A stretch of 64,000 bases of DNA from an uncultured Pseudomonadales bacterium (GTDB lineage Bacteria; Pseudomonadota; Gammaproteobacteria; Pseudomonadales; Azotimanducaceae). Position 1 is the stretch's first letter. Each line of letters begins with the position of its first letter. Under the pieces are notes generated by a model. It saw only the letters and a list, made by a program, of their open reading frames with translations, searched no databases and had not been told where the DNA came from. Made by a program: the position numbers and the translations under genes. Where the stretch lies: assembly GCA_943787425.1 (NCBI GenBank), contig CALSMJ010000003.1, positions 372,001 through 436,000 of the forward strand, written 5' to 3'. Positions 9,363 through 64,000 of the stretch are shown one piece after another.

Positions 9363-9737
9363 ATGGCCAGGATTAATCAATTAGTCAGGAAACCACGAAA
9401 GCGAAAGGTGGTTAAAAGCGACGTACCGGCCCTTCAAGCGTGTCCTCAACGACGGGGTGTCTGTACACGGGTTTATACGACCACGCCAAAGAAGCCGAAT
9501 TCAGCACTTCGCAAAGTTTGTCGTGTGCGGTTAACCAATGGCATGGAAGTCACGAGTTATATCGGCGGTGAGGGGCATAACTTGCAGGAGCACTCGGTGG
9601 TTCTGATCCGAGGGGGCCGAGTCAAGGATTTACCAGGTGTGCGATACCATACCGTTCGTGGCGCATTGGACACATCCGGCGTCGCCAAGCGAACCCAGGG
9701 CCGATCTAAGTATGGAACCAAGCGACCTAAAGCTTAA
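9363..9737 (+). CDS. rpsL: 30S ribosomal protein S12
   Basis: Decoding-centre protein, 124 aa, the usual length, nearly collinear with E. coli S12. The streptomycin-resistance positions are wild type: Lys43 in TPKKPNS, and Lys88 and Pro91 in GGRVKDLPG. Asp89, target of the RimO methylthiolase in other species, is conserved. ATG start with a TAGGAG ribosome site upstream. First gene of the str group. Confidence 0.98.
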
Positions 9738-9829
9738 GGTTGATAGGCCAAAAATGTAAGAAACGCTCGTTATTTGCGAGAGTAAGGTCGAGTCTTTTTG
9801 ATCTCGATAAAACCTGAAGAGAGAGTGTC

Positions 9830-10300
9830 ATGCCAAGAAGAAGAGTCCCCGAAAAACGGGTCATTATCCCTGATCCCAAATTTCATAACCAAACCCTTGC
9901 CAAGTTCATGAATCATGTTATGAACAGCGGTAAGAAGTCGGTCGCTGAAAAAATCGTATACGGCGCACTGGATCGTATCCAGAGCCGCAGCGGCAAAGAC
10001 CCGATTGAGGTTTTTGACGCGGCGCTTGAAGCGGTTGCGCCCACGGTCGAAGTAAAATCCAGACGGGTTGGTGGCGCGACCTACCAAGTCCCTGTTGAAG
10101 TGCGACCCTCACGTCGAACAGCACTCGCAATGCGCTGGCTCGTCGATTCGGCTAGAAAACGTAGTGAGAAATCCATGGCTTTGCGATTGGCTGGGGAACT
10201 GCAGGATGCTTCTGAAGGGCGTGGGTCCGCAGTGCGTAAGCGTGAAGATACACACCGAATGGCCGAAGCCAACAGAGCTTTTGCGCATTATCGCTATTGA
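9830..10300 (+). CDS. rpsG: 30S ribosomal protein S7
   Basis: 16S rRNA 3'-domain assembly initiator, 156 aa. Starts [10 protein letters not shown] and ends AHYRY, with the characteristic [14 protein letters not shown] helix region. It has a GAGAGAG purine stretch before the ATG. In E. coli S7 represses the str operon through the rpsL-rpsG gap. Here that gap is 92 bp and contains a small CTCG/CGAG hairpin (9766-9780) that could play the same part (inference). Confidence 0.98.
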
Positions 10301-59662: not shown

Positions 59663-60463
59663 CTATCGACGAACAGAAGGGTCGTAAAACCCCAGCCCCC
59701 GATACATATCAAATCCAGTAATTTGTCTAATTTCAGGCGACAGTTCGGCAAGCCTTTTCGGCGGAATGTTCAGGTATTGGTTTTCTTCTTGACGTACCCA
59801 ACCTACGGAATAGGTCAGGATGACGCCGTAGCGCCAGTCTTGCGCTGTATTGGCACCGGCACCATGCAATGTGCCACCCATCCAGAAAAGTACCGATCCA
59901 GCCGGCATTTCTGCCTGAACAATTTCCTCGTCTTTAGCAATCCGATCTTCAGGCCATTTGTGACTGCCTGGTACCAACAGCGTTGCACCATTGTCCGCAC
60001 GGAAATCTGATATTGCCCACATACTCGCGACGATGAGATTGGGACGTGGTTTTGGGAAAAATGTGAATGAATCTTCCTCCCGGTGCAATACCTGACTTCT
60101 TGCACCAGGCCCGACTTCCAATGCTGCGGTAATATGCAACTGGTAGCCGAATTCTCCATTAGGCAGGAGAAGGGTTTCGCAACATTGTTTTGAGAGAGGG
60201 TGGACAACAAGTTGATCAGTGATAGTCGGTGAACGTGCGACCAATCCAGCCACGCGGCGGGTTCGGCCCGGATAAAATTGTGTCGGATCTTCTTTTTCAA
60301 TCTCAATTACCCGGGCTTTTTCCATGTGTGGGGCCAACTCTTCTTTAACAGACTGACGTAAATTGGCATTCGTCACGCCGGTGATGACTACGCATCCGGC
60401 ATCATCTAACGCCTCAGCGATTTCATTACTTGGCGATTTAACTGAGAATTGAGGGATAGACAT
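59663..60463 (-). CDS. phytanoyl-CoA dioxygenase family protein, copy 1
   Basis: 266 aa, likely Fe(II)/2-oxoglutarate oxygenase. Iron-ligand positions are His127-x-Glu129 (VLHREEDSF) and His200 (GGTLHGAGAN), with Arg211 (DWRYGV) for 2-oxoglutarate. The Glu replaces the usual Asp of HxD. ATSMW-type core VASMWAISDFRADNGATLL and VPGSHKWPE are typical. ATG with GGAGAACG. It is 55 bp after its paralogue, most likely in one operon. The substrate is unknown; PhyH enzymes hydroxylate lipids, small metabolites and halogenated or phosphonate compounds. Confidence 0.82.
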   Translation of the reverse strand: MSIPQFSVKSPSNEIAEALDDAGCVVITGVTNANLRQSVKEELAPHMEKARVIEIEKEDPTQFYPGRTRRVAGLVARSPTITDQLVVHPLSKQCCETLLLPNGEFGYQLHITAALEVGPGARSQVLHREEDSFTFFPKPRPNLIVASMWAISDFRADNGATLLVPGSHKWPEDRIAKDEEIVQAEMPAGSVLFWMGGTLHGAGANTAQDWRYGVILTYSVGWVRQEENQYLNIPPKRLAELSPEIRQITGFDMYRGLGFYDPSVRR

Positions 60464-60518
60464 AGTGAGGCGTTCTCCAAGATCCTTTGTTATTCGACAG
60501 CCAAAAATATGAAAACGA

Positions 60519-61310
60519 TCAGCTTACAGAGCGATCATAAAACCCCAGCGCTCGATACATATCGAACCCGGCAATTTGGCGAACTTCAGGTGATAGCTCA
60601 GCAAGCCTTGCTGGCGGTATATCCATGTATTGATTTTCTTCTTGGCGAACCCAGCCAACCGAATAAGCAAGGACAACACCGTAACGCCAGTCTTGCGCTG
60701 TATTCGCGCCAGCTCCATGTATCGTCCCACCTAACCAGTAAAGCACTGAACCTGCTGGCATTTCTGCGGGAATAATTTCTTCGTTTTTAGCAACCCGCCC
60801 TGCTGGCCACTTATGGCTGCCTGGCACAAGCAAAGTTGCGCCATTGTCCGCGCGGAAATCAGTGATCGCCCACATGCTGGCGACGATGAGGTTGGGACGC
60901 GGGACGGGGAAGAAAGTGAAGGAGTTATCATCCCGGTGTAGTATCTGGGTTCTTGCACCAGGCCCGACTTCCAACGCTGCGGTAATATGCAACTGGTAGC
61001 CGAATTCTCCATTAGGCAGGAGAAGGGTTTCGCAACATTGTTTTGAGAGGGGGTGTGCAACAAGTTGATCCGTGATAGTCGGTGAACGCGCAACCAATGC
61101 TGTCACACGACGGGTATGGGGTGCGTAGAAATCTTCCGGATCATCCTCTTCAACCACATCGGCTTTTTTCATGTGTAGCGCCAACTCATCTTTAATAGAT
61201 TGTCGTAACCCAGCATCTGTCACACCAGTCACGACGACACACCCGGCCTCATTCAAGGCCTCAGTGATTTCACTGCTCGGCGACCCAGCTGAAAGTATTG
61301 GAATCGACAT
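60519..61310 (-). CDS. phytanoyl-CoA dioxygenase family protein, copy 2
   Basis: 263 aa paralogue of the gene downstream. Canonical facial triad: His125-x-Asp127 (ILHRDDNSF), His198 (GGTIHGAGAN), and Arg209. Same VASMWAITDFRADNGATLL core. ATG with AAGGAGACAG. One tract (about 60958-61051) is nearly identical in DNA to copy 1 while the flanks differ more, as after gene conversion. First gene after tetR, 53 bp apart, probably TetR-controlled. Confidence 0.85.
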   Translation of the reverse strand: MSIPILSAGSPSSEITEALNEAGCVVVTGVTDAGLRQSIKDELALHMKKADVVEEDDPEDFYAPHTRRVTALVARSPTITDQLVAHPLSKQCCETLLLPNGEFGYQLHITAALEVGPGARTQILHRDDNSFTFFPVPRPNLIVASMWAITDFRADNGATLLVPGSHKWPAGRVAKNEEIIPAEMPAGSVLYWLGGTIHGAGANTAQDWRYGVVLAYSVGWVRQEENQYMDIPPARLAELSPEVRQIAGFDMYRALGFYDRSVS

Positions 61311-61363
61311 TTTGCTGTCTCCTTGACTATAGAGTTCACATTGTGACGCTTTGGCTTCCTTGT

Positions 61364-61993
61364 CTATTTCAGCAAACCTGCTCCGACTGTTTCAGTGACA
61401 ACACCTGCCAACATAAGCTTCATTGCCCATACTCTTTGGTTGACTACCTCATCTAACTCAATGTGTCCTGTCATCCAGAAAATGACCAGACCCCATGAGT
61501 GAGCCGAAAACTGCTTGGCTAATTCCTCAAGGTCGAATTTGCCTTTCAGTTTTTTCTGAGCCTCAAGCCGGCTAAGGCATTCGTAGTAGAAGGGAATGTC
61601 CCTTCCGAACATTGCCTGAGTCAGTGCAGGATTGTTGTTTGCCATCAATGCTGCTCTTGTCATCGCAGCAGCGTATTGGGGAGTTTGCTGAATCTGACCT
61701 TTCATGACCTCGCAAGACATAATGAGATCAGCCACCGGGTCATCACTCACTCTCCTTTGAATCTCCTGCTCCAGTTGGTCGAATAAGTCTTTGAGGCTTT
61801 CAAGAATGACCCCATCCTTGGTGCCGTAAAGGTTGTAGATGGTAGCGACTGCAACACCTGCACGTTTTGCCAAGTCTCGGATGATCAATCCTTCATAGCC
61901 GGATTCATCCAACATTTCTCTGGCGCAGGTGAGTATTCGAGCCTGACGCTCAATCTGCCGAGCCGATTCATATTTCCTGCCGTTTGGTTTCAT
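61364..61993 (-). CDS. TetR/AcrR family transcriptional regulator
   Basis: 209 aa from ATG 61993 (TTG at 62011 is an alternative). N-terminal HTH in ILTCAREMLDESGYEGL and IIRDLAKRAGVAVATIYNLY (recognition helix about residues 38-48). The C-terminal ligand domain is variable (HSWGLVIFWMTGH). Divergent from the Rieske gene, with a large inverted repeat between them. It probably represses both directions until an inducer binds (inference). Confidence 0.88.
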   Translation of the reverse strand: MKPNGRKYESARQIERQARILTCAREMLDESGYEGLIIRDLAKRAGVAVATIYNLYGTKDGVILESLKDLFDQLEQEIQRRVSDDPVADLIMSCEVMKGQIQQTPQYAAAMTRAALMANNNPALTQAMFGRDIPFYYECLSRLEAQKKLKGKFDLEELAKQFSAHSWGLVIFWMTGHIELDEVVNQRVWAMKLMLAGVVTETVGAGLLK

Positions 61994-61996
61994 AAA

Positions 61997-62038
61997 AGCA
62001 TCTGACAACAAAATTTAAAGCATTTGACAATAAATTTG
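61997..62038. repeat. 22-bp-period direct repeat upstream of tetR
   Basis: AGCATCTGACAACAAAATTT (61997-62016) and AGCATTTGACAATAAATTTG (62019-62038) are near copies two helical turns apart, immediately upstream of tetR. Each contains TGACAA. Could be a second regulator site or duplicated promoter elements. Confidence 0.55.
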
Positions 62039-62078
62039 GAACATGATCCAGTTTATATTAAAGTTTAGATCGTGTTCC
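62038..62078. promoter_or_regulatory. candidate TetR operator between tetR and Rieske gene
   Basis: GGAACATGATC (62038-62048), 19-base spacer, GATCGTGTTCC (62068-62078): an 11-bp inverted repeat with one mismatch. The spacer holds TATATT (62054-62059), a possible -10 for the Rieske gene. Location in the divergent gap supports control by the TetR regulator (inference). Confidence 0.6.
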
Positions 62079-62097
62079 ATGTTTTGAGGAAAGCGTG

Positions 62098-63090
62098 ATG
62101 GATGCAGAAACGACTGCCTACTTAAAGAAAGAGGTCAATCATGAATTTGCTCGTTTCGAAGAATGCAGTAAGCCTGAAAACTTTGATGCACTCCCTGATA
62201 TCCCGACTGGCCGTTATATAAGTGATGATTTTTTCGCCCTGGAGCAAGAGCGAATCTGGTCCAAGACATGGTTGTTAGCTGGGCACGCCGATGAAGTAAC
62301 CGACATCGGCAGCTACAAACTTTGGGAGAGTAGCGGTACCCCAATTTTGATCGTTAGGGGCAGAGACAATCAGATTCGTGCCTTCTACAACACCTGTACT
62401 CACAGAGGTGGCCCGCTCGTCCGTCAGGAGTCTGGACAGGAAAAAGTCTTCGTCTGTAAGTATCACTGCTGGGCATTCAGTCTCGACGGGGCACTGAACC
62501 ATGTCCCTGATGAGCATGAGTTCATTGCCATCGATAAGTCCAAGCGAGGATTGAAGCCAATTCGCTGTGAAATGTTTGGCAATTGGATTTACGTGAACCG
62601 TGATCCCAACGCGATGCCTTTGGATGAATTCCTCGGCCCACTCACCCGGGAACTGGCTGATTTCGAACCTGACAATCTGCGTTTCGTCACACGCTATTAC
62701 TTTGATCTGGAATGTAACTGGAAGATCACGATGGATGCCTTTCAAGAGGTGTATCACCTCAAGCATATTCATCCCAATACCGTAGATGCGGCTATTGATC
62801 ATCGAAGTGCCAGTATGGCGTTGTTTCCGCAAGGCAGTTCGCGGATGTTTGTTGCAGCAAAAACGGGAGAGACAAAATTCACCTCGATACCAGCGCAGTC
62901 TCCTCTTGAGGAAGGTGAGCAACACGAGATCGTTAGAAGCGGCTCTCTTTCCTACAACATGTTCCCAAATATCGTGACACCAATCGGTGCCTATGAGTTT
63001 CCTTACCTGCAGTTCTGGCCAACATCAAAACGAACCACTCGATTTGAAGTGACGTTCTTCAGTCGCGACGACAATGTCAATCCTGGGTGA
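62098..63090 (+). pseudogene. Rieske non-haem iron oxygenase alpha subunit, C-terminally truncated
   Basis: 330 aa from ATG 62098 with GAGGAAAG. Rieske cluster ligands Cys100-x-His102 (CTHRGG) and Cys120-x2-His123 (CKYHCW). The catalytic domain begins with DAFQEVYHLKHIH: Asp213, His220 and His225. The family normally has 400-460 residues, with the third iron ligand (Asp) roughly 150 residues after the first His. That part is missing because the frame ends at 63090 where esterase sequence begins. Likely inactive. Substrate unknown; no reductase or beta subunit nearby. Confidence 0.8.
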
Positions 63091-64000
63091 TGGTGTGGTT
63101 TCACGGCGGGGCGCTCCTGGAGGGTGCGGGGGAGCTCTATCCCGGCGATGCGCTCACACGCAAGGGCGTGATTCTGGTCACAGTCAACTATCGGCTCGGC
63201 CCCCTCGGGTTCTTTGCCCACCCCGAGCTCTCTGAAGAAGGTGGCGGCTATTCGGGGAACCAGGGGTACCGTGACCAAATTGCCAGCCTGGAATGGGTTC
63301 GGGACCACATCGAGGGCTTTGGGGGCGACCCGAGCAATGTCACGATCTTCGGCGAGTCGGCCGGGTCCTGGGCCGTCAACGTGCTCCAGGCCAGCCCGTT
63401 AGCCCGGAGTCTCTTTCACAAGGCGATCGGCCAGAGCGGTGCGAGGTTGCTGCCACTATCGGAACTCCGGCAGGATCGCCCATGGGCGAGGTCGGCTGAA
63501 GACCGTGGTCTCAATCTTGCCGACCAATGGGCGAGAAGCAGAGGGGCGTCCCTGGCGGAACTGCGGGGGATTTCAGGCCGGGAGATCATTGCGGGTTACG
63601 AGGCCAGCCCCGAACTCTTCTGGGACTTCGACGCCCTTACCATCGTCGACGGCGAGGTGCTGGAAGAACAGATCTACACGACCCTCGCAGCCGGCCGTCA
63701 GGCTGACATACCCTTGCTGCTGGGGTCCAATGAAGACGAGGGAATCGCATTCGATGTTGACATGCTGGAGCCTGAGACGGCCGCGCAGATCGACCACCGA
63801 AGCAAGCTGGAAGCGGCCATCAAAACCCAGCTTCCCGAACTCGAGTTTGTACAACGTGATGCACTGTACCCGAGCGATGATCGGTTGGCCGCGCGGGAGT
63901 CTTATATCCGGTTCCAGACCGACGTTGCATTTACGCAGCCGCTGCGGCAATGGGCCGAGTTGATGGTCAATGTTCCCAGTCCGGCTTACCTCTACTGGTG
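63090..64000 (+). CDS. type B carboxylesterase, N-terminus missing, runs off window
   Basis: The frame is open from 63084 to the window end (303 codons from ATG 63090). Oxyanion-hole WFHGGALL at the very start, GFFAHPEL, GGDPSNVTIFGESAGSWAVN with the nucleophile at residue 90, and LLGSNEDEGIAF with the acidic triad residue. The ~100 residues before HGG in this family are absent. ATG 63090 overlaps the Rieske TGA (TGATG), probably by chance. Base composition is clearly more GC-rich than the genes to the left. Confidence 0.75.
   Translation, partial: MVWFHGGALLEGAGELYPGDALTRKGVILVTVNYRLGPLGFFAHPELSEEGGGYSGNQGYRDQIASLEWVRDHIEGFGGDPSNVTIFGESAGSWAVNVLQASPLARSLFHKAIGQSGARLLPLSELRQDRPWARSAEDRGLNLADQWARSRGASLAELRGISGREIIAGYEASPELFWDFDALTIVDGEVLEEQIYTTLAAGRQADIPLLLGSNEDEGIAFDVDMLEPETAAQIDHRSKLEAAIKTQLPELEFVQRDALYPSDDRLAARESYIRFQTDVAFTQPLRQWAELMVNVPSPAYLYW

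Follow-up and report, generated by a model that had tools for sequence, protein, structure and literature searches.

A probable chromosomal rearrangement scar with ISCR/IS91-type debris, joining a truncated Rieske oxygenase gene to a truncated carboxylesterase gene in a Pseudomonadales bacterium

In the analysis of a 64,000-nucleotide window from an uncultured Pseudomonadales bacterium (contig C3, positions 372001 to 436000), we found that a span of about 1.65 kb, at the right-hand end of the window and just beyond it, holds the broken remains of three genes and one mobile element. We consider it about 80% probable that this is a real chromosomal rearrangement scar of this make-up, best explained by deletion and illegitimate recombination at ISCR debris; no function is expected for the arrangement. 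Where several unrelated genes have been cut beside the remains of a mobile element, deletion and illegitimate recombination around insertion elements are the usual cause. The genome comprises 3.26 Mb in 8 contigs and is 93.7% complete, with contig C3 accounting for 559 kb. The relevant features are as follows.

59663-60463, minus strand: PhyH-type (phytanoyl-CoA dioxygenase-like) gene matching PF05721 (Pfam), one of a tandem pair
60519-61310, minus strand: second PhyH-type gene of the tandem pair, its ORF visibly similar to the PF05721-matching copy, with a relative at the same place in genome G209
61364-61993, minus strand: intact gene for a TetR-type regulator (PF00440), divergent from the Rieske gene and inside the 86.4% DNA match to G209
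62098-63085, plus strand: native part of the truncated gene for a Rieske oxygenase alpha subunit (Pfam Rieske and Ring_hydroxyl_A), with a 95% identical complete homologue in G209
63085/63086, no strand: break, 63085 being the last base in common with G209 by the end of the blastn match and by base-by-base comparison
63087-64000 and on to C3:436436, plus strand: N-terminally truncated gene for a type B carboxylesterase, a GC-rich block matching PF00135 from profile position 106

The Rieske gene and its break

The Rieske ORF (62,095/62,098 to 63,090, plus strand) contains the Rieske [2Fe-2S] domain (PF00355, E = 2.4e-17 in the Pfam search), and its match to Ring_hydroxyl_A covers only profile positions 2 to 143 of 208. 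A sequence-only reading of this DNA had the Rieske sequence stopping mid-domain at about 63,085. The position was right, with the correction that the Rieske frame, which ends NVNPG followed by a stop codon at 63088 to 63090, takes its final G and its stop from bases past the break. Separate alignment of the Rieske part, which that reading had proposed, yielded a complete homologue in G209, a genome of another genus, with 95% identity in a frame of 421 residues. The DNA identity of 86.4% extended over 61362 to 63085 and ended at 63085 (blastn), and base by base both genomes read ATCCTG before the sequences part; the G209 protein continues for 87 residues past this point with a sequence that differs from that of the window. 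A PhyH-like gene, a TetR gene, and the Rieske gene are arranged in G209 as in the window, with a gene for a LysR regulator coming next after Rieske. The compared G209 stretch has a single PhyH-type gene, whereas the window has a tandem pair (59663-61310), the second copy of which gave no NCBIfam match at 1e-5.

At an E value of 1e-60, a Rieske match was obtained in 21 of 97 relatives including the genome itself, the others showing at most 46% identity. Six of the 14 congeners matched at this threshold (42-44% identity) and eight did not, several of these eight genomes being incomplete. Among 206 family genomes searched at 1e-95, only G209 and G176 (81% identity, frame of 419) matched besides the genome itself. 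No homologue with exactly the ends seen here was found among the relatives searched, the 95% identical complete Rieske protein continuing differently past the break.

The nearest solved relative of the window protein by sequence is the carnitine monooxygenase CntA (6y9c), in which the iron ligands are His208, His213, and Asp323 (PMC7948474). In the segment EVYHLKHIHP of the window protein, YH and HP match the two ligand histidines by alignment and by their spacing of five. As in other Rieske oxygenase alpha subunits, the Rieske domain and the first part of the catalytic domain are thus present, whereas, compared with CntA and full-length G209, the last approximately 87 residues are missing, among them the stretch in which the third iron ligand would be expected. 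The motif GEDNENLPWIQ, which is conserved in the G209 and G176 proteins, is located in this lost part. The window protein therefore does not contain a complete catalytic domain with a His-His-Asp site (Ring_hydroxyl_A ends at 143 of 208), and, given that the third ligand, an aspartate, would lie beyond the break, we infer that the truncated protein is dead.

Selection on the retained part was compared over 330 codons between the window and G209 with G176 as the outgroup, the last codon straddling the break. Eight amino acid changes fell on the window branch and six on the G209 branch, with six not assignable. Changes at third codon positions numbered 23 and 26, those at first positions 13 and 6, and those at second positions 6 and 4, respectively; dN was 0.032 and dS 0.51 between the two genes. 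These counts gave no clear sign of relaxed selection on the Rieske part, which makes it probable that the break is young compared with the split between the window and G209. The excess at first and second positions on the window branch leans toward some relaxation, at a size for which significance cannot be claimed, and because first positions changed more on this branch the amino acid counts may make the break look younger than it is.

The esterase gene and the joint

The Rieske and esterase frames differ and overlap in GTGATG. The esterase reading starts with GTG at 63087, begins VMVWFHGG, and runs for 449 codons (ORF at locus L002:1188-2537) to C3:436436, 436 bases beyond the end of the window. 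That the esterase lies in another frame and sets in at HGG without its N-terminus, as had been claimed, was borne out by the COesterase match of the whole gene (PF00135), which spans profile positions 106 to 511 of 515. The motifs HGG, GESAG, NEDEG, and FHAAE, at residues 5, 88, 214, and 349 of the 448-residue reading, are common to type B carboxylesterases such as p-nitrobenzyl esterase (1qe3), and we take them, from what is familiar of the family, to supply the oxyanion HGG and the catalytic Ser, acid, and His. The C-terminal end is thus that of the family, whereas the start is deficient by about 105 profile positions; the N-terminal part of the fold is absent, and the protein would be missing strands needed for folding. 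Of the six closest relatives listed, five have frames of 542-558 residues, compared with 449 codons here; the sixth has a frame of 423, with a match beginning 55 bases from a contig end.

The stop codon TGA of the Rieske reading overlaps an in-frame esterase ATG, both frames are open, that of the esterase for its full 449 codons, and constraint on the Rieske part is little reduced, all of which would fit a functional arrangement in which shortened Rieske and esterase proteins are made with stop-start coupling at TGATG. We regard such an arrangement as very improbable, given that the lost Rieske part holds GEDNENLPWIQ, the expected site of the third iron ligand, and that the esterase is without some 105 N-terminal profile positions. 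The ATG moreover corresponds in the alignment to a methionine that p-nitrobenzyl esterase also has (MVWIHGG), so that the TGATG overlap looks like chance. The idea that the coupled pair is expressed and has been kept, as an operon emerging from gene halves joined by an ISCR-type element, deserves hardly any credence.

The rise in GC content noticed at the joint was confirmed, with values of 0.493 in the 300 bases before it and 0.643 in the 300 after (0.49 vs 0.64). The 1-kb interval from 63,001 to 64,000 was the GC-richest (0.608) among 101 such intervals over 101.9 kb, followed by 64,001 to 65,000 (0.566). Values in 100-base intervals were 0.56-0.72 inside the esterase gene and 0.51-0.57 over the ISCR pieces that follow it, and to the right of these pieces they fell unevenly to 0.38-0.44 about 350 bases further on. 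The GC-rich block thus amounts to approximately 1.35-1.4 kb, the esterase gene, with ordinary GC on either side, and in composition this gene is foreign-looking for the region. No donor for it was found in 206 family genomes (best identity 55-58%, in 6 genomes besides its own), in 97 relatives (best 51%), in a contig search of the best 80 of 348 relatives (top identity 46%), or in plasmids (247 records, all below 60%).

The joint might also have arisen by plain deletion, with the esterase gene once lying 3' of the Rieske gene, a single deletion fusing the two, and the ISCR debris being unrelated and older. This account competes with the mechanism within our preferred explanation, not with the reality of the scar. 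The Rieske/esterase joint itself carries no visible ISCR sequence, and hydrolase genes do occur near the Rieske cluster, given that G209 has an alpha/beta hydrolase gene of another type (HGGG and GDSAGG, by eye) about 2.3 kb past Rieske. However, the next gene after Rieske in G209 is that for the LysR regulator, tblastx at 1e-12 gave no match to the window esterase in the 20 kb of G209 compared, and the esterase composition is foreign to the region. We consider plain deletion rather unlikely.

ISCR-type debris and the right flank

Directly behind the esterase stop codon, at C3:436437-436464, is a 28-base motif (CAGTCGnTnTTGCTGAAAAnGCTGTnGG). With a pattern derived from the same two sites that it then found, a genome-wide search at no more than 3 mismatches returned only this site and C5:175412-175439, both beside ISCR remnants. 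At these two main sites the motif is in the opposite orientation to the transposase, the C5 site lying upstream of the transposase gene; a weaker motif-like site is present at L041:4316-4344. The DNA that follows the esterase stop shares a 31-base inverted similarity with DNA upstream of the C5 transposase gene, which 0 of 500 shuffles equaled; the result was again 0 of 500 for a weaker one near a fragment on contig C4. These tests flatter the similarity, both regions having been chosen after BLAST had revealed it. The motif was considered as terIS and this assignment was dropped, the region upstream of ISVsa3 being dissimilar (266 and 430 of 500 shuffles as good). The upstream regions of the ISVsa3 and C5 transposase genes, compared with each other, likewise showed no significant similarity (163 of 500 shuffles as good), and no ISCR end, oriIS or terIS, was identified at any joint.

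The motif is followed by two pieces of a transposase gene that read in the esterase's direction. Both are internal, corresponding to about residues 185-228 and 197-253 of a copy on contig C5 in one comparison and to 190-228 and 196-251 in another, and therefore provide no readable footprint of transposition. The second piece is 86% identical to the C5 copy over 162 bases and has its best NCBIfam match in ISCR_clade_Ia (NF052416), with an E value of 2.3e-4 over 50 residues, far below the curated cut-off; the first had no NCBIfam match at 0.1, and Pfam gave none in the transposase pieces or in the piece of a short-chain dehydrogenase/reductase (SDR) gene beyond them. The C5 copy is near full-length and frame-broken, with matches to Zn_Tnp_IS91 and Y2_Tnp (Pfam); its best NCBIfam match is again NF052416 (1.1e-98, also below the cut-off), and it covers residues 10-483 of ISVsa3 in several frames, being degenerate. 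A copy labeled ISVsa3 is 64.2% identical to it, and at least 5000 plasmid records, annotated with an IS91-type transposase or unannotated, matched it at up to 64.5%. The scar fragments and the C5 copy appear to be of the ISCR clade Ia/IS91 family kind, the scar differing from such elements in that it has only internal transposase pieces without recognized element ends.

Seven matches to the C5 transposase were found in the genome: itself, the two at the scar, and four elsewhere. The last are short decayed pieces at C3:456741-456950, C4:447777-447887, C3:294528-294746, and C5:182498-182602, of which those at C3:456741 and C4:447777 correspond to the middle part of the protein that the scar pieces also cover. 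The ORFs around four of the ISCR pieces other than those at the scar were listed and, by eye, followed no rule of sitting at broken genes. Beside the C5 copy, a protein piece (AAMKANSEKVALLSPTDNSVLAYPGLDGQADH) occurs twice within 5 kb (L040:5459-5818 and 9557-9922), suggesting local duplication. A fragment of an IS3-family transposase gene (NF033516 positions 284-344 of 369) is located about 12 kb to the right of the scar, at L002:14257-14649 (C3:448156-448548), between intact-looking carboxylesterase and alpha/beta hydrolase genes.

Homology to a PRK06197-type SDR oxidoreductase starts at about C3:436712, where the last 94 residues of the gene remain, matching PRK06197 positions 234-304 of 306. 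The corresponding gene of the congener G012, the one in which the frame was readable and is called intact, encodes 308 residues with a PRK06197 match over its length, so that about 214 of 308 residues are missing here. Relatives of the SDR were found at 1e-12 in 10 of the 97 genomes including its own, and six of these are among the 14 congeners. In G012, G008, and G004 the genes next after it are related to the serine hydrolase genes at the scar, where the SDR remnant is succeeded by two serine hydrolase genes and a sensor kinase gene; in G014 and G002 the DNA that comes next resembles a stretch located about 8.5 kb further along in the genome of the window, and in the short flank of G010 nothing more was seen after it. 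An amidohydrolase-like gene precedes the SDR gene in G012 and G014, that of G014 being recognized by eye, and the long relatives of the G012 amidohydrolase in the genome of the window show 30-36% identity and lie elsewhere. Because congeners share the gene order at the SDR gene and the amidohydrolase is only distantly represented, the right flank looks native and appears to have lost DNA here, in a genome that is not complete.

Origin and meaning of the scar

We propose that the scar has two cut ends and a filler. On the left, the PhyH-TetR-Rieske cluster, known from another genus, would have lost the last approximately 87 Rieske residues; on the right, the loss from genus-native chromosome would have taken the first two thirds of the SDR gene, of which 94 of about 308 residues are left. 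The 1.63 kb between them would be a filler composed of the 3' four fifths of the foreign-looking esterase gene and the two ISCR/IS91-type transposase pieces, with the joints presumably made by illegitimate recombination and deletion around ISCR copies. The sequence-only reading, in which both genes were broken at one point by deletion or illegitimate recombination unless the joint was an assembly chimera, accords with this proposal on the side of recombination. Its fusion of two genes was too simple, given that the esterase runs on into ISCR-type fragments and a third truncated gene, and several joints are therefore involved.

ISCR-type elements pick up DNA from the 5' (terIS) side of the transposase, and the esterase is on that side of the transposase fragments. 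This position fits the esterase gene having been brought in by rolling-circle transposition of an ISCR element, a step that we regard as plausible but less likely than not, no element end being seen and about 185 transposase residues being missing between. IS91 targets the tetranucleotides GTTC and CTTG, whereas the bases at 63,085 are CCTG/GGTG, a mismatch that carries little weight, since the target would be visible at the oriIS end alone. According to PMC13393415, transposition of ISCR by rolling circle, and hence the carriage of adjacent genes, is suggested, the mechanism not being experimentally proven.

By way of Rieske and esterase relatives, the 97 relatives and 206 family genomes yielded no second instance of the joint, which counts against our reading; this search was indirect, the joint DNA itself having been searched in its own genome. 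Plasmids searched for distant DNA similarity to L002:2500-3200, which covers the esterase end, the ISCR pieces, and the SDR remnant, gave nothing. In an assembly chimera, sequence from different organisms or distant places would have been joined, and the breaks would exist in no cell. The genome is incomplete and in 8 contigs, assembly errors arise at repeats such as ISCR copies, the joint separates stretches of sharply different GC content, and the relatives and family genomes searched yielded no second one in which both halves have close relatives. Given, however, that the GC-rich block is only about 1.4 kb long and is flanked by DNA of ordinary GC, two or more false joints would be needed close together, within 1.65 kb, inside a contig of 559 kb. 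The ISCR pieces are also no more than 86% identical to the other copies and would thus not easily mislead an assembler. We consider a chimera improbable, and a real rearrangement remains our preferred reading.

The scar looks like an ordinary rearrangement scar, with an ordinary explanation that opens no new question. For annotation, the Rieske and esterase ORFs should both be left out of any count of working enzymes. The locus also illustrates that ISCR-type debris can lie at a scar involving several genes on a chromosome contig, such ISCR/IS91-type transposases being, in the collections examined, most evident on plasmids of clinical genera.
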